Below are positions 2,432 to 18,757 of a DNA stretch of 64,000 nt, piece after piece. Within the stretch, counting starts at the first letter, position 1, and every line of letters starts with the position of its first letter. The notes under the pieces are model-generated. The model did no database searches and was not told the DNA's origin. It saw only the letters and a list, made by a program, of their open reading frames with translations. The position numbers and the translations under genes are program-made. The stretch is from Petropleomorpha daqingensis (GTDB lineage Bacteria; Actinomycetota; Actinomycetes; Mycobacteriales; Geodermatophilaceae), in NCBI RefSeq assembly GCF_013408985.1, contig NZ_JACBZT010000001.1:3534001-3598000 (forward strand). The letters are read 5' to 3'.

Positions 2432-2523
2432 CGGCCGACGCCCGCGCCCATGGCGGACGGGCGGCTCCAGATGCGGTTCTGCACTGCCACAGGGCATCAG
2501 CGCCGGCTATGGCGTCCATCGCC

Positions 2524-2538
2524 CGGAATCATAATCCG
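2524..2538. promoter_or_regulatory. possible operator/promoter upstream of the importer
   Basis: The 226-nt gap after the terminator contains no gene. It holds an AT-rich patch where CGGAAT and AATCCG form a near-palindrome around CAT, and CATAAT (2530-2535) could serve as a -10 box. No good -35 element is visible. It is the best candidate control site for the importer operon, but weak. Confidence 0.25.
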
Positions 2539-2656
2539 AACGTTGAATTTGGTTCCTCGCCCCGGCAGACTGACGGCCGACCGTGACCCACACCACCATC
2601 CCCCGACGGCGGCCGCCGGTCCTCAGCGGGGCGGTCTCGACCACCAGGAGAACCAG

Positions 2657-4207
2657 GTGCCCCTTGTCTCGATGACCCGGCTCGCCCGGGTGACCGCTGC
2701 CGCAGGCAGCGCTGTCGTCCTCGCGACGGCGCTGGCCGCGTGCGGCTCGTCCAGCGCGGACAGCGGTTCGTCCACCTCGCAGAGTCTCCCGATCGGCCTG
2801 AACGGGAGCGTCGCGTACTCGTTCAACCCCTACGACCAGTCGTCGCTCAGCGACCTGGAGGACCCGGCGTACGACACGCTCATCCACTACGTCGACGGCG
2901 AGCTGAAGCCGTGGCTGGCGACGTCGTGGGACTTCAAGGACCCGACGACGCTCGAGCTCAAGCTACGGAACGGCGTCACCTTCACCGACGGGACGACGTT
3001 TGACGCCGAGGCCGTGCGCGCCAACTTCCAGTACGCGATCGACAACAAAGCCAACTACGGCAGCTTGATCTTCCTGCAGAACGTCAGCGGTATGACCGTC
3101 GTGGACCCGACCACCCTCGACGTGACGCTCAGCACGCCCAACCCGGCGTTGCCCTACGACCTCAGCCAGAACGCCGGCTACATGGTCAGCCCCAAGGCGC
3201 TGCAGAACCCGGACGGGCTGAAGCAGGCGCCGGTCGGCACCGGACCGTACGTGCTCGACACCGCCGCGACGCGCGCCGGCGTCAGCTACTCGTTCAAGCG
3301 CAACCCCGACTACTGGGCGGCCAAGGAAAACGTCTTCCCGTACGACACGGTCACGTTCACCCTGCAGGGCGATCCCAACGCGGCCAAGAACGCCGCTGCC
3401 TCCGGTCAGGTCAAGGCCCTCACCGTGCAGCCCGGCACAACGATCCCGGGGTTCACGACGGTCACCAGCAACTCCGGCAACCAGTCCGGCTTCAGCGGCG
3501 CCTGGGTCGACGTGACCGGTACCGCCTTGAAGGCCATGGGTGACCAGCGGGTCCGGCAGGCGCTCAACTACGCGATCGACCGGGCGAAGATCGCCAAGGC
3601 GGTGTACCAGGACGCGGCGGTCGCCGTGCCGCTGGTGCCGGTCACCAAGGACAGCCCTGCCTGGAGTGAGCAGTTGGGTTCGATGTACCCGTACGACCCC
3701 GACAAGGCCAAGCAGCTGCTGGCCGAGGCCGGCTATCCGGACGGCTTCGAGCTCACGATGATCAGCCTCCCGCCGGCCGACCAGTTCGCCCAGGCGATCG
3801 CCGGCCAGCTGCAGCAGGTGGGCGTGAAGGTGAACATCGAGAGCCACACCAGCGACCTGGTGCAGGCCGTGCAGTCCGGCACCCGACCCACCGGCTTGCT
3901 GTTGTCATCCCTCACCGGTGACTTCGGCCAGGACATGGCGAACCTGTTCTCGTCGACCGCCTTCTACAACGTCCATCAGGCCGACGACCCGCAGCTCGAC
4001 GCGCTGCTGAAGCAGGCGGCGCAGGAGACGGACGAGAACGCCCGCAACCACCTGTACCAGCAGGCTGCCCAGCGCGGCGCGGACGACGCCTGGTTCCTCG
4101 GCACGGTTCAGCTCCAGACCATCACCGCCTTCGACCCGAAGGTCGTGAAGGTCGAGCCGCCGGACCGCGGCGCGATCCACCTGTACGACTACCACCTGCC
4201 CAGCTGA
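2657..4207 (+). CDS. ABC transporter substrate-binding lipoprotein (family 5)
   Basis: Extracytoplasmic binding protein of a dipeptide/oligosaccharide-type importer, anchored to the membrane outer face. I chose GTG 2657 because AGGAG lies 6 nt upstream; an in-frame ATG at 2672 is the alternative. The product is about 516 aa. It has a short positively charged start, a hydrophobic stretch and the lipobox LAAC, then a Ser-rich linker. The SBP_bac_5 fold is recognisable in repeated features such as LRNGVTFTDGTTFDAEAV, GTGPY and VRQALNYAIDR. Family-5 proteins bind peptides, nickel or sugars. The neighbouring rhamnosidase and GH43 genes make an oligosaccharide ligand likely, but the sequence alone does not prove it. 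Confidence 0.88.
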   Translation: MPLVSMTRLARVTAAAGSAVVLATALAACGSSSADSGSSTSQSLPIGLNGSVAYSFNPYDQSSLSDLEDPAYDTLIHYVDGELKPWLATSWDFKDPTTLELKLRNGVTFTDGTTFDAEAVRANFQYAIDNKANYGSLIFLQNVSGMTVVDPTTLDVTLSTPNPALPYDLSQNAGYMVSPKALQNPDGLKQAPVGTGPYVLDTAATRAGVSYSFKRNPDYWAAKENVFPYDTVTFTLQGDPNAAKNAAASGQVKALTVQPGTTIPGFTTVTSNSGNQSGFSGAWVDVTGTALKAMGDQRVRQALNYAIDRAKIAKAVYQDAAVAVPLVPVTKDSPAWSEQLGSMYPYDPDKAKQLLAEAGYPDGFELTMISLPPADQFAQAIAGQLQQVGVKVNIESHTSDLVQAVQSGTRPTGLLLSSLTGDFGQDMANLFSSTAFYNVHQADDPQLDALLKQAAQETDENARNHLYQQAAQRGADDAWFLGTVQLQTITAFDPKVVKVEPPDRGAIHLYDYHLPS

Positions 4208-9446: not shown

Positions 9447-10997
9447 GTGACGACGACCCAGCGATCCAGCCCCATTGCCGCCGGGTTCCACCCCGATCCC
9501 AGCGTCGTCCTCGTCGACGGGGTGTACTACCTCGTCAACTCGACGATGGAGTACCTCCCGGCCCTGCCCGTCCACCGCAGCACTGATCTGCTCGAGTGGA
9601 CACACATCGGCAACGTGGTCACCCGGCCTGAGCAGGTCGATCTCGGCGACGTGCCGACCCCCGGCGGGGTCTGGGCTCCCACGATCCGGTATCGCGACGG
9701 CGTCTTCTACGTCATCGTCACGGTGGCCCTCGGTGGGCGCGGCTGCGTCGTCTTCACCGCCACCGATCCGTCCGGCCCGTGGAGCGACGGGCTGTCCCTG
9801 CGGGCGGTCGACGGCATCGACCCCGATCTCGCCTGGGACGACGATGGCACCGCGATCGTCACCTACGCCCGGTACCCCCATGCCATCCAGCAGGTGCGGG
9901 TGGACCTCGCGACCGGTGAGGCGCTGGAGCAGCCGCGGCCACTCTGGGTCGGCAGCGGGCTGTCCACCCCTGAGAGCCCGCACCTGTACCGGCGCGGCGG
10001 CTACTGGTACCTGCTGGCTGCCGAGGGCGGCACCGAGCGCGGGCATGCCGTGACCGTCGCCCGGAGTTCCTCGCCCGAGGGTCCCTGGGAGGGCTGCCCG
10101 TCCAACCCCGTGCTGACCGCCGCCGGCACACGCCGGCCGGTGCAGAACACCGGCCACGGTGACCTGGTCGAGACCCCGGACGGTGGAACAGCGCTCATCC
10201 TGCTCGGGGTGCGCCCGGTCGGCTTCACCCAGGCGTTTTCCCCGCTGGGCCGCGAGACCTTCCTGACCGACGTGGACTGGGTCGACGGGTGGCCACGGCC
10301 GAGGCCGGTCCTGCTGGCCGGGGGTCCGGCCCGGCAGGAGGCGGTCTTCGACTTCGCCGACCCGGCCGCCCTGGACGACCCGGGATGGATCGCCGTGCGT
10401 CGCACGCCGGCCGAGGTTGCCTCGTTGGACGGGGCGACGGGGCGGCTGTGCCTCGCCGGCGACGGTGCCGGCCTCGACGCACGGCGCCCCGTGTTCCTCG
10501 GGCGCCGGCAACGGCATCTGTCCGCGACGGTGACCGCTCGGGTGGACGCGACGGTAGGGGTCGGGGGCCTGGCGGCCCGGCACGACGAGCGGCACTGGTT
10601 CGCCCTCGAGGTCCGCACGGAGGGGAGCGCGGCCGTGGTCACCGCGCGGGCCGCGCTGTCCGGGTTCGAGCGCACATGGGAGGCGACGCTGCCGGCCGGG
10701 GAGGTGGAACTCGCCATCGAGCTGCGCCAACCGTCCAGGGACATCCGGGCCATGTGGACCGGTGGGGACCACATCCGGCTGTGCGCGGCGGCCAGCGGCC
10801 GCCGCGTGGTGCTCGCCGAACTGGACGGCCGGTACTGGAGCTTCGAGACGGCGAACTCCTTCACCGGCCGGGTGATCGGTCTGTACGCCACCGAAGGCAT
10901 GGTGACCTTCGCCGACTACGCCTACTCCGGGACCGACCAGCTCCCCGACGCGGACGACGGCCCCTCTGCTGCGGAGCGTTCGGAGGAGGTGGCATGA
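9447..10997 (+). CDS. glycoside hydrolase family 43 (beta-xylosidase/arabinofuranosidase-like), copy 1
   Basis: Five-bladed beta-propeller glycosidase with a C-terminal beta-sandwich, 516 aa. GTG 9447 follows GAGGAG with good spacing; there is no signal peptide. The catalytic base Asp lies in GFHPDPSVV near residue 17, the pKa-modulating Asp in GIDPDLAWDDDG, and the acid Glu in STPESPHLY. A second block, EGGTERGHAVTVARS, is shared with the downstream GH43 gene. Roughly residues 300-516 form the accessory sandwich typical of XynB-like enzymes. Substrate could be beta-1,4-xylo- or alpha-arabino-linked oligosaccharides. It is coupled to the next esterase gene by ATGA. Confidence 0.88.
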   Translation: MTTTQRSSPIAAGFHPDPSVVLVDGVYYLVNSTMEYLPALPVHRSTDLLEWTHIGNVVTRPEQVDLGDVPTPGGVWAPTIRYRDGVFYVIVTVALGGRGCVVFTATDPSGPWSDGLSLRAVDGIDPDLAWDDDGTAIVTYARYPHAIQQVRVDLATGEALEQPRPLWVGSGLSTPESPHLYRRGGYWYLLAAEGGTERGHAVTVARSSSPEGPWEGCPSNPVLTAAGTRRPVQNTGHGDLVETPDGGTALILLGVRPVGFTQAFSPLGRETFLTDVDWVDGWPRPRPVLLAGGPARQEAVFDFADPAALDDPGWIAVRRTPAEVASLDGATGRLCLAGDGAGLDARRPVFLGRRQRHLSATVTARVDATVGVGGLAARHDERHWFALEVRTEGSAAVVTARAALSGFERTWEATLPAGEVELAIELRQPSRDIRAMWTGGDHIRLCAAASGRRVVLAELDGRYWSFETANSFTGRVIGLYATEGMVTFADYAYSGTDQLPDADDGPSAAERSEEVA

Positions 10998-11965
10998 GCC
11001 GGGCGGTCGGACCGCCGCCGTTCGACGCAGAGTGCGCCGCAGCGCTGGAGCGGTTGCCCGCGTTCCCGCCGCTGACCCTGGAAACGATCCCGGAGGTGCG
11101 CATCCCTCCTCCCGGCTTCGAGCCCCCGAGCGACGCCGACCTGAGCCGGGACGGCGCCTTCGACATCGTGCGTCGGACCGTCCCGGGACCGGAGGACGCC
11201 CCCGACGTGCGACTGGTCATCTGTCGTCCGGCGGAGGCAGATGGCACTCGACCGGTCATCTACCACGTGCACGGTGGTGGGATGTTCAGCGGCAGCCCCG
11301 AGATGTCGCTCCCGCAGGTCCTGGAGTGGGCGGGGGACCTGGGGGCCGTCGTGGTGTCGGTCGACTACCGGCTGGCGCCGGAGACGCCGCACCCCGGCCC
11401 GGTGGAGGACTGCTACGCGGGCCTGTGCTGGCTGGCCCGGCACGGGTCCGAGATCGAGGCCGACGCCCGGCGGATCGTCGTGGCGGGGGAGAGCGCCGGC
11501 GGAGGGCTCGCCGCCGCGCTCGTCCTCCTGAGCCGCGACCGTGGTGGTCCGCGACCCGCCGGGCAGCTGCTCAGCTGCCCGATGCTCGACGACCGCAACG
11601 ACCGGCCGTCCGTCCTCCAGATGGCCGGGGTCGACACCTGGGACCGCGCGCGCAACGAGGTCGGGTGGACGGCCCTGCTGGGCCCGGCGCGAGGGACGCC
11701 TGACGTCTCGGCGTACGCGGCGCCCTCCCGCGCGGAGGACCTCACCGGGTTGCCACCGACCTTTCTGGACGTCGGCTCGGCAGAAACGTTCCGCGACGAG
11801 GTCGTCGACTACGCCAGCCGCATCTGGCAGGCCGGCGGACGGGCCGAGCTGCACGTGTGGCCCGGCGGTTTCCACGGCTTCGACGTCCTCGCCCCCCACG
11901 CGGCCATCTCTCAGCAAGCCAGGGCGGCTCGTCTCAGCTGGCTGCGTCGGGTCCTGACCGACTGA
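10994..11965 (+). CDS. alpha/beta-hydrolase, HSL-type esterase, copy 2
   Basis: Second family IV esterase of the cluster, 323 aa, starting in the ATGA overlap with the GH43 gene. Oxyanion hole is VHGGGMFSGS, nucleophile elbow GESAGGG, and the C-terminal His is in FHGFDV. The two esterases share the fold but are clearly divergent, so they likely differ in substrate rather than being a recent duplication. No export signal. Probable role is deacylation of oligosaccharides taken up by the adjacent importer. Confidence 0.84.
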   Translation: MSRAVGPPPFDAECAAALERLPAFPPLTLETIPEVRIPPPGFEPPSDADLSRDGAFDIVRRTVPGPEDAPDVRLVICRPAEADGTRPVIYHVHGGGMFSGSPEMSLPQVLEWAGDLGAVVVSVDYRLAPETPHPGPVEDCYAGLCWLARHGSEIEADARRIVVAGESAGGGLAAALVLLSRDRGGPRPAGQLLSCPMLDDRNDRPSVLQMAGVDTWDRARNEVGWTALLGPARGTPDVSAYAAPSRAEDLTGLPPTFLDVGSAETFRDEVVDYASRIWQAGGRAELHVWPGGFHGFDVLAPHAAISQQARAARLSWLRRVLTD

Positions 11966-12008
11966 CCGCCCCACCGATTTCCCACCCACAGCCACCCAGA
12001 GGTTCCTC

Positions 12009-12335
12009 ATGCCTGATGACGATCTCGACCAGCTGCGCCGCGTCTACGACGAACTCGTAGATCTGCAGGGCTGGGCCCGGTTCCGCACGCCCCGCAACAT
12101 GGCCCTGGCGCTGACCGGGCGCGTTGGTGCCGTGGCCACCCATCTGCAGTTCGCCGGAGAGGGCGAGCCGACGGCGGAGCCGGCTGCTCCGGAGCTGCGC
12201 GCCGAACTCGCGGACTGCCTGGTGTACCTCGTGGCCCTCACCGACGCTCTCGGCTTCGACGTGGCCGAGGAAGCTGTGGTGCGGCTCCGCGCGGCAGTCG
12301 AGGACAGCCGGCCGGGGGCGGAGGTGCCGGCATGA
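12009..12335 (+). CDS. MazG-like small protein with degenerate metal site
   Basis: A 108-aa all-alpha protein resembling MazG/dCTPase-type nucleotide pyrophosphohydrolases. The layout fits: N-terminal helix, MALALTGRVGAVATHLQF, then ELRAELADCLVYLVALTDAL. Active enzymes have acidic residues where this protein has GRVGAV (normally GEVGEL-like), so the first pair of Mg ligands seems lost, while the second pair (E and D of AELADCL) remains. It is coupled to the GH43 gene by ATGA. SD GAGG at 11999-12002. A diverged copy of its leader and first 17 codons occurs at 13941-14021. Function in this glycan cluster is unknown. Confidence 0.6.
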   Translation: MPDDDLDQLRRVYDELVDLQGWARFRTPRNMALALTGRVGAVATHLQFAGEGEPTAEPAAPELRAELADCLVYLVALTDALGFDVAEEAVVRLRAAVEDSRPGAEVPA

Positions 12336-13810
12336 CGGCGCAGCGGCCCGTCGTCCCCGGGTTCTTCCCCGACCCCAGCATCTGCCGCGTCGACGACGCC
12401 TACTACCTGGCCTGCTCGAGCTTTGAGTACGCGCCGGGACTGCCGGTCTTCCGCTCGACGGACCTGCGCTCGTGGGAGCAGATCGGCAACGCGCTCGACC
12501 GGCCGTCCCAGCTGTCGGTGGCAGGGGCGGTCTCGTCCGGTGGCATCTTCGCGCCCACGCTGCGGCACCACGCCGGCCGGTTCTGGTTGATCACCACCAA
12601 CATGTCCGATCCGCAAGGCCACCTGCTGGTCACCGCCGACGATCCGGCCGGCCCGTGGTCCGAGCCGGTCTTCTTCCCGGAGGCCCCCGGCATCGACCCC
12701 GATCTCTCGTGGGACGAGGACGGCAGCTGCTACCTGACCTGGGCGGGCTTCGCCGACGGGCAGCCGCTGGGCGTCGTCCAGGCGGTCGTCGACCCGACGA
12801 CCGGAGCCGTCCTGTCCGAGCCACGGCAGCTGTGGCAGGGGACGGGTGGGAAGTTCCCGGAGGGCCCGCACATCTACCGGATCGGCGACCTCTGGTATCA
12901 GCTGATTGCCGAGGGGGGCACCGAGCGCGGGCATGCGGTGACCATCGCCCGCGGACCGTCGCCCTCCGGTCCGTTCGAGCCCTGCCCCTGGAATCCGGTC
13001 CTGACCACCCGGGGGACCGACTCCCCGGTGCAGAACGCCGGCCACGCCGACCTCGTCCAGCGGCCCGACGGCTCGTGGGCGCTGGTCTACCACGGCGTCC
13101 GCGTCCGCGGGTCCAGCCCCCAGTGGCACGTGCTCGGTCGGGAGACGTTCGCCGCGGACGTGACCTGGGAGGACGGCTGGCCCCGGGTGACGGAGCCGAT
13201 CGAGCCACCGCCGGTCGGGTTGGTCAGCGAGTCCCTGTCCGGACCGGAGCTCCCGCCGAGCTGGGTCTCGCCGGGACGCTTCCCCGGCGAGGTGCTGCAC
13301 CCCGCGGAGGGCGGCCGGCGTCTCACGGCCGACGACGCGGCGGAGCCGGTCTTCGTCGGCCGCCGGCAGCAGCACCTGCACGCCGGCGTCCGGGCGGACG
13401 TCCGCGTGGAGGACGGCGCGGGCGGCCTCGAGCTCCGCATCGACCCGCGACACGCCCTGCGTCTGGAGGCCGACGGAGAGCGGGTCCGGGCGGTGGTCCG
13501 GATCGGATCGATCACGTCGGTCCTGGGGGAGGCGGCCACCGGACCGGACGTGACTCTGGAACTGCGCGCCGAGCCGTCGACCGGCCACGTGTGGAGCACC
13601 GAGTCCGGCCCGGACGACCTGGTGGCCGGCGTCGTCACAGCAGGCAGGCTCGTCGAGCTCGGGCGTCTCGACGGCCGGTATCTCTCCACCGAGGTGGCCG
13701 GGGGGATGACCGGACGCGTCCTCGGCGTCTGGTGCAGTGCCGGCGAGGTGCTACTCCGGTCCTTCGAGTACACCGGCGCCGACGACCCGTCGGAACTACG
13801 CCGATCGTGA
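12332..13810 (+). CDS. glycoside hydrolase family 43, copy 2
   Basis: 492-aa paralogue of the upstream GH43 enzyme, starting in the ATGA overlap with the MazG-like gene. Catalytic base Asp in GFFPDPSICR, modulator Asp in GIDPDLSWDEDG, acid Glu in KFPEGPHIY. Also LIAEGGTERGHAVTIAR, nearly identical in wording to copy 1. The C-terminal third is the beta-sandwich domain. No signal peptide; acts inside the cell. The pair may split work between xylosyl and arabinosyl linkages, but specificity cannot be read from sequence. Confidence 0.88.
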   Translation: MTAQRPVVPGFFPDPSICRVDDAYYLACSSFEYAPGLPVFRSTDLRSWEQIGNALDRPSQLSVAGAVSSGGIFAPTLRHHAGRFWLITTNMSDPQGHLLVTADDPAGPWSEPVFFPEAPGIDPDLSWDEDGSCYLTWAGFADGQPLGVVQAVVDPTTGAVLSEPRQLWQGTGGKFPEGPHIYRIGDLWYQLIAEGGTERGHAVTIARGPSPSGPFEPCPWNPVLTTRGTDSPVQNAGHADLVQRPDGSWALVYHGVRVRGSSPQWHVLGRETFAADVTWEDGWPRVTEPIEPPPVGLVSESLSGPELPPSWVSPGRFPGEVLHPAEGGRRLTADDAAEPVFVGRRQQHLHAGVRADVRVEDGAGGLELRIDPRHALRLEADGERVRAVVRIGSITSVLGEAATGPDVTLELRAEPSTGHVWSTESGPDDLVAGVVTAGRLVELGRLDGRYLSTEVAGGMTGRVLGVWCSAGEVLLRSFEYTGADDPSELRRS

Positions 13811-13817
13811 GAGGTCC

Positions 13818-13940
13818 ATGCCTGCGCGTGTCCGACCGTCTCAGGTCTTGGCGCGGCCGGTGAGCGCCCCGCCGCATCTGCGGGTCGAGCACCTCGACAA
13901 CCCGCTCGGCGCCGCGACCGCCCGCCGCGCCTGTCTCGCC
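13818..13940 (+). pseudogene. 5' remnant of a second GH78 rhamnosidase gene
   Basis: Just after the GH43 stop there is GAGAGG and an ATG, followed by a frame reading PPHLRVEHLDNPLGAATAR, which is the typical extreme N-terminus of GH78 rhamnosidases. The family normally continues ...RPRLSW. Here the frame must shift by one base near 13925 to read PRLSRLP, after which rhamnosidase homology ends at about 13940. The rest of the gene is gone. The reading frame as it stands ends at 13977-13979. This is a gene start left behind by a deletion or recombination. Confidence 0.6.
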
Positions 13941-14021
13941 TTCCCCACCCACATTCACCCGGAGGTTCCTGATGTCTGACACCGATCTCGACCAACTGCG
14001 CCGCGTCCACGACGAACTCGA
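13941..14021 (+). repeat. diverged copy of the MazG-like gene's leader and start
   Basis: This stretch aligns with about 11980-12058: the same CCCACCCACA leader, GAGGTTCCT Shine-Dalgarno region, start codon and coding for LDQLRRV-DEL. By eye about four bases in five agree. Homology stops abruptly at 14021, where the monooxygenase begins. It is the trace of a paralogous MazG-like gene, not a recent exact duplication. Confidence 0.65.
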
Positions 14022-15213
14022 CATGACAAGTCTTCGGAATGCGCCGGGGACGGGGAAGCGGCTGAAGATCCTGGTGGTCGGGGCCGGCGTCGGCGGTCTG
14101 AGCGCTGCGATCGCGCTGACGCAGATCGGAGCCCAGGTCGATGTCATCGAGATCAAGCCGGACAACAGCGTGCCGGGAGTCGGTTTCGGCCTGCGGCTCA
14201 ACGGCATGCGCGCTGTTCGCGAGCTCGGACTTCTGGAGCAGTGCAAGGCGTTCGGGACCAAGCCGTCGGGGTTGACGTACTACGACAACCGCGGCCAGCA
14301 CCTAAGCACACTGAGCTACGGCCCCGATGACGGTGACGTCCCGAGCATCCTCGTCATGTCGCGAATCGGTTACCTGGACGTCGCCACCGCCCGGGCGCAG
14401 GAACTGGGATGCGACATCCGGATGGGAACGACCGTGGCGAGCCTGGAGCAGAAGCCGGACACCGTCGCGGTCACCTTCAGCAACGGGGACAGTGCGGAAT
14501 ACGACCTCGTCGTCGGCTTCGACGGGATCAATTCACAGATCCGCCACGAGTACTTCGGCGCCCGGTACGACCCCACCCCGGCCGGAGGCGTGGCGTGGCG
14601 ATGTCCTCTGCCGCTCGCGGACGGCCTGACCGACACCACCTTCCTCCAGGGCCACGGGGGCAAGATCGTCTTCTCTCCGCTGTCGAGCGACATGATGTAC
14701 ATGGTGCTGACCGTCGCCGAGGAGGGCCGCCCGCGCTACGACCCGGCCGAGATGCCCCGGATCATGTATGACCGCGCCCGCGCGCTCATGGGGGACTCGG
14801 AGTTCATGGCCGAATCCATCGTGCAGGTCCTGCAGTCGACCAGTGTCGCCTACACGCCGTACTCGACGGTGTGGGTGCCCTACCCCTGGTTCCGCGGCCG
14901 GGTGATGATCGGGGGCGACGCAGCGCACACCATGCCGCCGTACCTCGGCTCGGGCGCTGCCATGGCCATCGAGGACGGCGTCGTCCTCGCCCAGGAACTG
15001 GCCAAGGACCACTCCCTGCTCGACGCCCAGCTGATGTTCATGGCACGACGCCTTCCCCGCGCGAGAGCGGTGCACGAGCGGTCGATCGAGTCGATGCTCG
15101 AGGAATTCGACTCGGTCACACCCGAGGCCTTCCAACGGCGACTGCAGTTCTTGCGCGACCTGGAGCCGATCGCGAACGAGTACTCCAACCGACTCCTGGC
15201 CCTGCCCTACTGA
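13972..15213 (+). CDS. FAD-dependent monooxygenase with captured MazG-like N-terminus
   Basis: Flavoprotein hydroxylase of the PHBH/salicylate-hydroxylase type, 413 aa from ATG 13972. The first 17 residues (MSDTDLDQLRRVHDELD) copy the start of the MazG-like protein at 12009. The conserved enzyme begins at the in-frame ATG 14023. Only 13972 has a Shine-Dalgarno (GGAGG at 13961-13965), so the fusion start is probably used. FAD-binding VVGAGVGGLSAAIAL follows, and the second FAD/NADPH signature is GGDAAHTMPPYLGSGAAMAIEDG-like around residues 312-335. Substrate is unknown; an aromatic aglycone released from a glycoside would suit the cluster. Confidence 0.82.
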   Translation: MSDTDLDQLRRVHDELDMTSLRNAPGTGKRLKILVVGAGVGGLSAAIALTQIGAQVDVIEIKPDNSVPGVGFGLRLNGMRAVRELGLLEQCKAFGTKPSGLTYYDNRGQHLSTLSYGPDDGDVPSILVMSRIGYLDVATARAQELGCDIRMGTTVASLEQKPDTVAVTFSNGDSAEYDLVVGFDGINSQIRHEYFGARYDPTPAGGVAWRCPLPLADGLTDTTFLQGHGGKIVFSPLSSDMMYMVLTVAEEGRPRYDPAEMPRIMYDRARALMGDSEFMAESIVQVLQSTSVAYTPYSTVWVPYPWFRGRVMIGGDAAHTMPPYLGSGAAMAIEDGVVLAQELAKDHSLLDAQLMFMARRLPRARAVHERSIESMLEEFDSVTPEAFQRRLQFLRDLEPIANEYSNRLLALPY

Positions 15214-15300
15214 CCCCAGTCGGCGGCCAACACGTCCCTCTGCCCGCGGCGCACCAACGGGACGCATGTCGACATCACGCGCGAGACGAAAGGATCGATC

Positions 15301-16752
15301 ATGCCGGAGTTGCAAGCAGAGCCACACGTGCGCGTGCTGGAGATCGACGCGGGTGACGCCCGTGACTTCAGGTCGCACAAGGGGCTGGGTGGGATCCCCG
15401 GCCCCCTTCCCGAGCACCCCGATTTTCCCGACATGACCCCGTTGTGGCGGGAGGCCGGCGTGACGCTGGTGCGGTCCTACGACTGGATCTCGCGGCTCGA
15501 CACGAGGAACAACCCGGCGAGCCTCTTCCCCGACTGGGACGCCGATCCGACCGACCCGGCCAGCTACAACTTCGCGGCGACCGACCAGTGGGTCCAGGCG
15601 GTGCACTCCATCGGCGCCGACGTCCTGTTCACCTTCGCGAGCGCCATCCCCGCCAACAAGCTTCCGGCGCTGGACGTGGACAAGTACGGCGTGGTCGTCG
15701 AGCACGTCGTGCGCCACTACGCCCGCGGCTGGGCCGATGGCCCGGCCAGGCCCATCCGGATGTACGAGTTCGGCGACCAGCCGGACCTGGGACCGCTGCA
15801 CTTCGAGGGTCCGGCCGATGACTTCTTCGCCATGTACGAGGCCTTCTGCGCGGCCGTCAAGCGGGTCGACGACACCCTGGTGGTCGGGGGCCCGTCGCTG
15901 GCCTTCCCGCTCAACCCCGACGCCGACTACCGCGAGGGCTTCCTCTCGTTCGTGCGGGAACGACGACTGCCGCTGGACTTCTTCTCGTTCCTGTGGTTCG
16001 TGGACCCCACGCGGGATCCTCTGGACTTCCGGTTCGTCGCCGGGGAGATGCGCGCGCTGCTGGACAGCTACGGCTTCGATGACACCGAGCTGATGCTGTC
16101 CTACTGGAACTACCTGGCGATCCCCAGCAACGACGCCCCGTCACCGGAGAAGGCGGCGTTCCAGGCCGCCGCCGCGATCTACCTGCAGGACACGCCCGTG
16201 CACCACGCCCTCTTCTTCCGGGCGGACAGCGGCCGGGACCCTCACTACGGCTTCGTCGACCCGGCTGCCATCTACAACCGGGAGGGCTCGCCCGACGAGC
16301 GCGCCATGGCGTTCTCCTTCATCGGGCAGGCCATGACCGGTCAGCGACTCGCCGTCACCGGCGGGGACGAGGCCGGCTTCGCCTGTCTCGCCAGCCGCGA
16401 CGGCGACCGCGCGCGCATCCTCATCGCCAACTTCGTGGCACCGGAGTCAGCGCTCACGGCGAGGAACAGCGACGAGTTCCGGTTCCGCATCCCGATCGGC
16501 CCCAAGCACATCGAGCTCAGCTACCGCCTCCCACCGCAGCGCGACGGACTGGCATCGGCCGGCGTCGAGTCCGCGCAGGTACGGCTGACCAACCTCCCGT
16601 GGAAGGGGCGGGCCGTGTCGATCAGCCAGCGATCGCTACGCGGCGAACTCGGAGCAACCCGGGAAGAGCTCGTAACCGATTCCGGCTCCCTCGACCTGGA
16701 TGTCGAGATCGAGCCGCAATCCGTGGTGCTCGTCGAACTCGCCGCTCAGTAA
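15301..16752 (+). CDS. GH39-like (clan GH-A) protein with missing catalytic glutamates
   Basis: 483-aa protein with the pattern of a GH39-type TIM barrel (about residues 20-350) and a C-terminal beta domain. In active enzymes the acid/base lies in a W-N-E-P motif. Here the aligned segment is YEFGDQPDL (residues 155-163), replacing N-E with D-Q. The nucleophile segment T-E-W-N is replaced by SYWNY (267-271). The rest of the barrel, including FFSFLWF before the nucleophile strand, is well kept, so the change looks selective rather than decay. It may be a sugar-binding pseudo-enzyme or use other residues. No signal peptide. SD is GAAAGGA at 15287-15293. Confidence 0.6.
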   Translation: MPELQAEPHVRVLEIDAGDARDFRSHKGLGGIPGPLPEHPDFPDMTPLWREAGVTLVRSYDWISRLDTRNNPASLFPDWDADPTDPASYNFAATDQWVQAVHSIGADVLFTFASAIPANKLPALDVDKYGVVVEHVVRHYARGWADGPARPIRMYEFGDQPDLGPLHFEGPADDFFAMYEAFCAAVKRVDDTLVVGGPSLAFPLNPDADYREGFLSFVRERRLPLDFFSFLWFVDPTRDPLDFRFVAGEMRALLDSYGFDDTELMLSYWNYLAIPSNDAPSPEKAAFQAAAAIYLQDTPVHHALFFRADSGRDPHYGFVDPAAIYNREGSPDERAMAFSFIGQAMTGQRLAVTGGDEAGFACLASRDGDRARILIANFVAPESALTARNSDEFRFRIPIGPKHIELSYRLPPQRDGLASAGVESAQVRLTNLPWKGRAVSISQRSLRGELGATREELVTDSGSLDLDVEIEPQSVVLVELAAQ

Positions 16753-17405: not shown

Positions 17406-18596
17406 TCATTTGGAGACGCCGTCTCTGACGGTGCCTGTGCTGTTGAGCGACTCGGTGTCGGCCAGTGCTTCGAGAACCGTGGCGGCGCCGGTCGCGGCGA
17501 TCTTGCGGCCGAAGTAGACGTCGGTGGTCATGGACGTGTTGGCGTGGCCGAGCTGGTCGGCGGCGGCGCGGGAGGACAGACCGGCCTGGTCCATGAGGGT
17601 GGCGACGGTCTTGCGGAAGACATGGGAGGTGACCCAGTCGAAGCCGGCGGCGGCAAACGCATCTCGTAGGTCGGCCTGGGTGTTGGACGGGTCGCGCCAG
17701 CCGCCAAGCGGTGCAGGAAACACCGGACGAGCTCCTCTGCCGCCGGTCGTGCCTCCGGAGCGGCGCGCTCGGTCGCGGAGCATGTCGGTGCACCAGCGGG
17801 GGAGGATCAGGGTGCGGCGGCCGGCGTCGGTTTTGGTCGACTTGATCGCCAGCCCTTCGCCACGCACGCGCACCGCGGCGGCTGTCACCTCGACCAGCCC
17901 GCCCTCGAGGTCGACGGCGCTCCAGGTCAGGCCGCAGGCTTCGCCGATGCGCAGGCCGGTGGCCATCAGGAAGGCGACCAGCTCGGGTAGGTCGCGTGCT
18001 ATGGCTTTCTCGTCGTAGGTGAGCGCGGCGCGCAGCTGCCGGAGCTCGGCCAGCGTCAGCGCGCGGGGGGCGGTCTTCGGCCGGCCGTTGATGCGGCCGA
18101 GGTCCTTGACGGGGTTGTGGGGGAGGGCGTCGTGGCGGGCAGCCAGCGCGCACATGCCCGACAGCACGGACCGGCACATCCGGGCGGTGGCGATCCCGTG
18201 GTGGTCGGCGATGTCGCGCAGGTGCCGGTCGAGGATCCCCACGGACAGTTCGCGGATGCGGAGCTGGCCGAGACGGGGCAGGAGCTGGCGGTCCAGCCGG
18301 TCGCGGTAGGCCTGCAGTGTGATGGGGGACAGGTTGTCCAGGCCCGCGTACCAGGCCTCGCCCAGCAACAGCACGCGACTGTCTGCGGTGAGCTCGCCGC
18401 CCGACTTGCCGGGTGCCCGGTCGCGCAGGGCGAGTTTGAGCGCGCGCTCGGCCGCGATCCTGCTGGCGGCGTTGCGTTCCACGGCCCGCACGTGCCCGTC
18501 GTAGTCGCGGACGAGCACGCGGGCGCGAAAGCCGGTGCTGGTCTTGTAGATGCGAATGGCGCCGGCGGTGCCCAGGGCCATCGGTGGGCGTCCCAT
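17406..18596 (-). CDS. tyrosine-type site-specific integrase
   Basis: Phage/ICE-family recombinase, 396 aa from ATG 18596 (MGRPPMAL). Residues about 60-150 form the SAM-like core-binding domain, and the catalytic domain follows. The full catalytic set is visible: Arg in ATGLRIGEACGL, Lys in STKTDAGRR, H-x-x-R in SHVFRKTVATLM, His in LGHANTSM, and the nucleophile Tyr in TDVYFGR. It is transcribed away from the tRNA-Asn fragment at 18758, the usual arrangement at the integrase end of a tRNA-integrated element. No excisionase gene is recognisable next to it. Confidence 0.93.
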   Translation of the reverse strand: MGRPPMALGTAGAIRIYKTSTGFRARVLVRDYDGHVRAVERNAASRIAAERALKLALRDRAPGKSGGELTADSRVLLLGEAWYAGLDNLSPITLQAYRDRLDRQLLPRLGQLRIRELSVGILDRHLRDIADHHGIATARMCRSVLSGMCALAARHDALPHNPVKDLGRINGRPKTAPRALTLAELRQLRAALTYDEKAIARDLPELVAFLMATGLRIGEACGLTWSAVDLEGGLVEVTAAAVRVRGEGLAIKSTKTDAGRRTLILPRWCTDMLRDRARRSGGTTGGRGARPVFPAPLGGWRDPSNTQADLRDAFAAAGFDWVTSHVFRKTVATLMDQAGLSSRAAADQLGHANTSMTTDVYFGRKIAATGAATVLEALADTESLNSTGTVRDGVSK

Positions 18597-18757
18597 GCCG
18601 GCGCACCCTAGCCCCCATTTATCCCCCACCAATCAAGAGTCCACAGGGGTCAGAAAGGGGCAACACCGGACAGGGCTGGAGGGAAACTGGAGGAAGTCTG
18701 CAGGTCAGGTGCGTACACAAGGTGCAGCAACGTGATGCCAGTCGAATGGAGCCGATC

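Follow-up and report, generated by a model that had tools for sequence, protein, structure and literature searches.

Positions 13811-14030 of the window (the whole 64,000-nt stretch of DNA analysed here, G000:C1:3534001-3598000 of a genome consisting of a single contig of 5.38 Mb) most likely hold a scar in which the start of a MazG-like gene was captured by a monooxygenase gene, with the fusion predating its presence at two loci and with separate deletions and gene conversion following it; we place the probability of this reading at roughly 0.7. The features first needed are given below, where A denotes the leader of the MazG-like donor and B its captured counterpart in the window, together with the fusion that it begins. 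The second fusion copy in the genome is referred to as C.

10994-11965, plus strand: alpha/beta-hydrolase (esterase) gene (Pfam Abhydrolase_3, 6e-54)
11978-12057, plus strand: donor leader A, an 80-nt direct repeat with 13941-14020
12009-12335, plus strand: MazG-like gene, the intact donor (phmmer against PDB, dCTPP1, 1.6e-12; homologue alignment)
12332-13810, plus strand: GH43 gene, 5' of the scar (Pfam Glyco_hydro_43, 1.2e-81)
13941-14020, plus strand: captured leader B; its ribosome site, start codon and opening 16 codons derive from the MazG-like gene
13961-13965, plus strand: GGAGG ribosome-binding site of the captured start (-10.7 kcal)
13972-15213, plus strand: chimeric FAD-dependent (group A type) monooxygenase gene, 413 aa (Pfam FAD_binding_3, 5.5e-28)
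14023-14025, plus strand: internal in-frame ATG (codon 18), a possible former native start, absent from copy C
15301-16752, plus strand: GH39-like gene, the conserved partner of the monooxygenase (Pfam Glyco_hydro_39, 1.2e-6)

The earlier note had claimed that a diverged copy of the MazG-like leader (11978-12060 against 13936-14025) precedes the monooxygenase, and the alignment bears this out, with A and B matching without gaps over 80 nt at 86% identity. With BLAST E-values of ∼1e-19 in the window and 1.7e-20 in the whole genome, the repeat is not a product of chance. It spans the closing ∼30 nt of the intergenic leader with the ribosome site, followed by the ATG and 16 MazG-like codons, and A sits 1963 nt upstream of B in direct orientation, so that the donor of the captured expression signals is identifiable elsewhere. 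As also claimed, the captured start, with its ATG at 13972, runs in frame into the FAD enzyme. This enzyme matches NCBIfam PRK06847 at 4e-97, which is under that model's curated cut-off, and the group A motifs GxGxxG, DG and GD are present as VVGAGVGG, GFDGINS and GGDAAH and are conserved in the orthologue alignment. The closest solved structures by sequence are aromatic hydroxylases, for example 6-hydroxynicotinate 3-monooxygenase (E 1e-25).

The donor gene is homologous to the dCTPP1 fold family and is a relative of dCTPP1/RS21-C6 in which two metal-binding glutamates have been replaced. Its GEVGELAE motif, the glutamates of which bind metal in the dCTPase/MazG family, reads GRVGAVAT, and so the conserved glutamates are missing. 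With the motif so altered, and with this the only such gene in the genome and located in a sugar-catabolic operon, the protein is probably not an active nucleotide pyrophosphatase. Relatives of the MazG-like gene in the family and order (30-44% identity) were never beside the esterase or GH43 genes of this operon in the 14 family loci inspected, which therefore do not supply the ancestral gene order.

A scan of ∼85,000 species genomes returned 23 orthologues of the monooxygenase (62-72% identity), from Microbacterium, Naasia, Amnibacterium, Pseudolysinimonas and one MAG. The 17-residue start, whose presence in orthologues from unrelated contexts the earlier note had held to count against a capture, is absent from all 23; their starts instead lie 4-5 residues ahead of KILIVGAG. 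Each of the five orthologues with scored starts possesses a Shine-Dalgarno of its own, of the AAGGAG or GAGGAG type. One further protein alone has this start, a paralogue encoded elsewhere in the genome that carries upstream DNA of the donor as well, as capture predicts. A search of 59 relatives at loose thresholds gave no leader-monooxygenase fusion, one of 394 members of the class gave no strong match (E <= 1e-100) outside the window's own genome, and plasmid records held only relatives of <60% identity. The view that the monooxygenase gained its signals and N-terminus by recombination is consequently supported as to the recombination, but the signals would have been replaced and not gained, since the orthologues have good ribosome sites of their own.

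The paralogue (copy C) was found by searching the window's own genome, and lies 871 kb away at G000:C1:4418815-4421681. The homologous block, at 9815-12681 of locus L025, comprises leader, monooxygenase and GH39 at 95% identity. The last ∼40 nt of the esterase and the intergenic leader recur 5' of this copy, with window 11924-12042 matching L025 9758-9879 at 82%. The leader of copy C lies behind a truncated transporter signal peptide, the sequence 5' of the esterase end being the promoter of a transporter lipoprotein gene with the start of its signal peptide, to which the only close match is window 2481-2749 (74%). These fragments follow one another as the intact genes do in the window operon, which would fit the collapse of a related operon through deletions. 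Copy C is without 36 nt of the window copy (codons 12-23), and its protein begins MPDTDLDQLRR-EPGRGKQLKILVVGAG. An assembly artefact was rejected, as the genome forms a single contig and 78 substitutions in 2.7 kb, along with indels, separate the copies. No tRNA was found near either fusion copy or anywhere in the window. A TetR-type regulator at L025 8491-9138, just upstream of copy C, is 35% identical to a TetR that stands divergently beside the closest full-length monooxygenase orthologue (L043), and on the basis of this identity it may be a regulator of the monooxygenase-GH39 cassette.

The presence of the same chimera at a second chromosomal place makes the fusion an established product of ordinary duplication and deletion, and not a local or fresh event. 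The earlier note's picture of a single recombination at 13811-14030 therefore does not stand, as at least one fusion and one later deletion are needed. Copy C retains 54 nt of donor DNA (11924-11977) that are missing from B, while B retains MazG codons 13-16 that are missing from C; as each holds donor sequence that its counterpart is missing, neither can be a simple copy of the other, and a common fused ancestor holding both donor parts would be the simplest explanation. Over the shared ∼65 nt of leader, counted from the alignments, A and B differ at 10 sites, A and C at 6, and B and C at 4, which, on these few sites, is consistent with an ancestral leader that was C-like.

It might be argued that two independent events, with differing junctions, each attached the MazG-like leader to the monooxygenase, the leader being a strong start within the same regulon. 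The junctions do differ on both sides, the donor of B being 11978-12057 and that of C 11924-12042. Both fusions, however, share a reading frame and lie almost at the same point, B and C are closer to each other in the leader than either is to A, and one fusion followed by deletions needs fewer coincidences, so that two captures appear unlikely. A still more doubtful proposal is that selection has made the MazG-derived start a portable cassette for starting translation, supplied twice to the monooxygenase-GH39 pair for regulated or coupled translation; were this true, the genome would hold a small record of how genes gain new 5' ends by start-signal capture.

A later exchange between the two loci has probably left its trace in a single tract:

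14518-16200, no strand: probable gene-conversion tract, 99.76% identical to copy C

Identity to copy C is 95.4% in the flank at 14041-14517 and 90.9% in that at 16201-16752, whereas the intergenic gap of the cassette is identical at 87 of 87 sites. The longest identical run of 726 nt was reached in none of 20,000 permutations, and neither was the run at third codon positions (0/20,000). A near-identical core that includes the intergenic gap and sits between diverged flanks suggests that the core was probably homogenised by gene conversion after B and C had diverged.

Upstream of the captured leader, the scar retains the beginning of another gene:

13860-13943, plus strand: 5' remnant of a GH78 alpha-L-rhamnosidase gene, from the start codon to about codon 27, with one frame break
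13818-13979, plus strand: remnant ORF of 53 codons (from translation and anti-SD energy)

Over 58 nt, window 13878-13935 is 84% identical (E=8e-9) to the beginning of an intact GH78 gene located at 4.91 Mb in the same genome, and the GTG start codons of the two align (VSAPPHLRVEHLDNPLG in the remnant against VSTAPSGLRVEHLDTALG in the intact gene). Past the frame break the remnant reads PPRLSRLP against PRLSWRLP, confirming the claim of a GH78 gene start with a break in frame. The remnant is without the catalytic (alpha/alpha)6 domain, with its ORF stopping after 53 codons, and the three GH78 catalytic domains of the genome all lie elsewhere. The window's own GH78 gene, which begins 5' of the window, was rejected as the source of the stump because its N-terminus differs. 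Comparison with relatives, which the earlier note had proposed, yielded the 23 monooxygenases without the extension and, in Pseudolysinimonas yzui (L061), an intact GH78 gene immediately upstream of the monooxygenase-GH39 pair; given this arrangement, the stump is plausibly the residue of an ancestral GH78 neighbour.

Read directly from the sequence, the stump meets the leader at ∼13941 within a short shared TTCCC. Such a junction, along with the position of the donor 1963 nt upstream in direct orientation, could be taken to mean that the leader is filler DNA, copied by a replication template switch into a break between GH78 and the monooxygenase and then spread to C by gene conversion. This is very improbable, and was already weakened by copy C holding more upstream donor sequence (the esterase end) than B, with which extra sequence C cannot have obtained its leader from B.

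In both copies, translation probably begins at the captured start. In copy C the captured ATG is the sole ATG, GTG or TTG before the FAD fold; the next start codon, a GTG at codon 23, falls inside KILVVGAG, leaving the MazG-derived ATG as the only start that keeps the FAD-binding strand intact. In the window copy, anti-SD energy scoring found no pairing at the internal ATG at 14023, against energies of -10.7 kcal at the captured start, -7.0 at the donor and about -6.3 at the orthologues. The claim that only the captured start has a Shine-Dalgarno is correct with respect to this internal ATG, but not with respect to the in-frame upstream ATG of the remnant ORF (13818), which closely follows GAGAGG at a spacing of 1-3 nt, a weak ribosome site of -7.0 kcal. 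As the stop of this ORF (13977-13979) gives it an 8-nt overlap with the monooxygenase start, termination-reinitiation from the stump could add to initiation of the monooxygenase. No promoter- or terminator-like sites were found near the scar. Because MTSLRNAPGTGKR, which separates the junction from the conserved core, exceeds the N-terminus of any orthologue in length, the native start of the monooxygenase can be placed only approximately.

In the AlphaFold model, residues 1-30 have a pLDDT of 44-54 and the FAD fold from residue 31 one of ∼87-92, and with confidence this low in the extension no structural role is suggested for it. That the N-terminus is a selected functional domain or tag, linking a partner such as the degenerate MazG-like protein or altering folding, is the least probable of the explanations considered, since, although it is in frame in both genomic copies and residues 4-15 are modelled as a helix with low confidence, it is missing from the 23 orthologues, copy C has lost one third of it and the model confidence is poor.

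The GH39-like gene lies directly 3' of the monooxygenase in all 23 orthologous loci, and the pair (13972 to 16752) is conserved nearly entirely within Microbacteriaceae (L043-L065). Genes with a C-glycoside deglycosidase domain (CGDB, PF19906) are near the pair in L063 and L047, genes with an N-terminus resembling those of CGDB genes in L045, L049 and L053, and a GMC oxidoreductase gene in L045. The pair likely has a role in aromatic glycoside breakdown. Eight clustered CGDB-domain hits were observed at G000:C1:4827061-4870588, in the vicinity of a GH78/ABC-transporter operon (4.90-4.92 Mb), itself a paralogue of the operon at the window start. The transporter promoter (2481-2620; L025 9516-9660) has a AACGTTGAAT-type sequence, which by eye resembles palindromes such as GAATCAGAACNNNGTTCTGATTC upstream of Microbacterium monooxygenase genes and is possibly a shared type of operator. 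After the operon, an ORF resembling a tyrosine-recombinase integrase was noted by eye at 17406-18632 on the minus strand.

Taken in order, as reconstructed from the three sequences A, B and C, the events in this glycoside-catabolic operon would have begun with the 5' end of the MazG-like gene (leader, GGAGG, ATG and first codons) and the esterase end being placed before the monooxygenase-GH39 pair. The sequence from MazG codon 16/17 to the monooxygenase start would then have been deleted in frame, such that the monooxygenase was initiated at the MazG-derived ATG with a foreign N-terminus and its expression was presumably driven by the captured signals. We infer that the fusions of B and C share this origin, the fusion having formed before the cassette existed at two loci. 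Deletion would later have removed the duplicate esterase and almost the whole upstream GH78 gene from the window copy, producing the stump/leader junction at ∼13941, and from copy C the interval from the transporter signal peptide to the esterase end along with 36 nt of the fusion; gene conversion would afterwards have homogenised both cores. No new mechanism is required, as operon duplication and deletion, expression-signal capture and gene conversion suffice.

Automatic annotation gives both enzymes N-termini unlike those of any orthologue, and may in this instance be correct. Fusion of genes by in-frame deletion between operon neighbours is a known process, and the present case shares with it the in-frame joining of one gene's 5' end to a second gene; here, however, the upstream gene is represented by just 16-17 codons, and an intact donor survives 2 kb away. 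Capture or co-option of promoters by deletion or duplication is known from the Lenski experiment, at citT (PMC4718724), and E. coli provides examples of promoter capture deletions (PMC5526668). The scar resembles these in that rearrangement puts a gene under the expression signals of another, but differs in that what was captured is a translation start, with ribosome site, ATG and initial codons joined in frame, and in that the event is old and present in two copies. Intragenomic gene conversion between paralogues has been described for a PE_PGRS pair (PMC1762029), for which a near-identical tract likewise sits between diverged flanks, although the tract in this genome takes in the greater part of a cassette of two genes within a catabolic operon. 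The scar is thus a well-resolved case of operon remodelling and expression-signal capture of a known kind, illustrating how a foreign start and N-terminus may be acquired through ordinary duplication, deletion and gene conversion. As a natural case it is a clear one, since a single genome still preserves in legible form the donor, the recipient, the stump and a second copy of the product.
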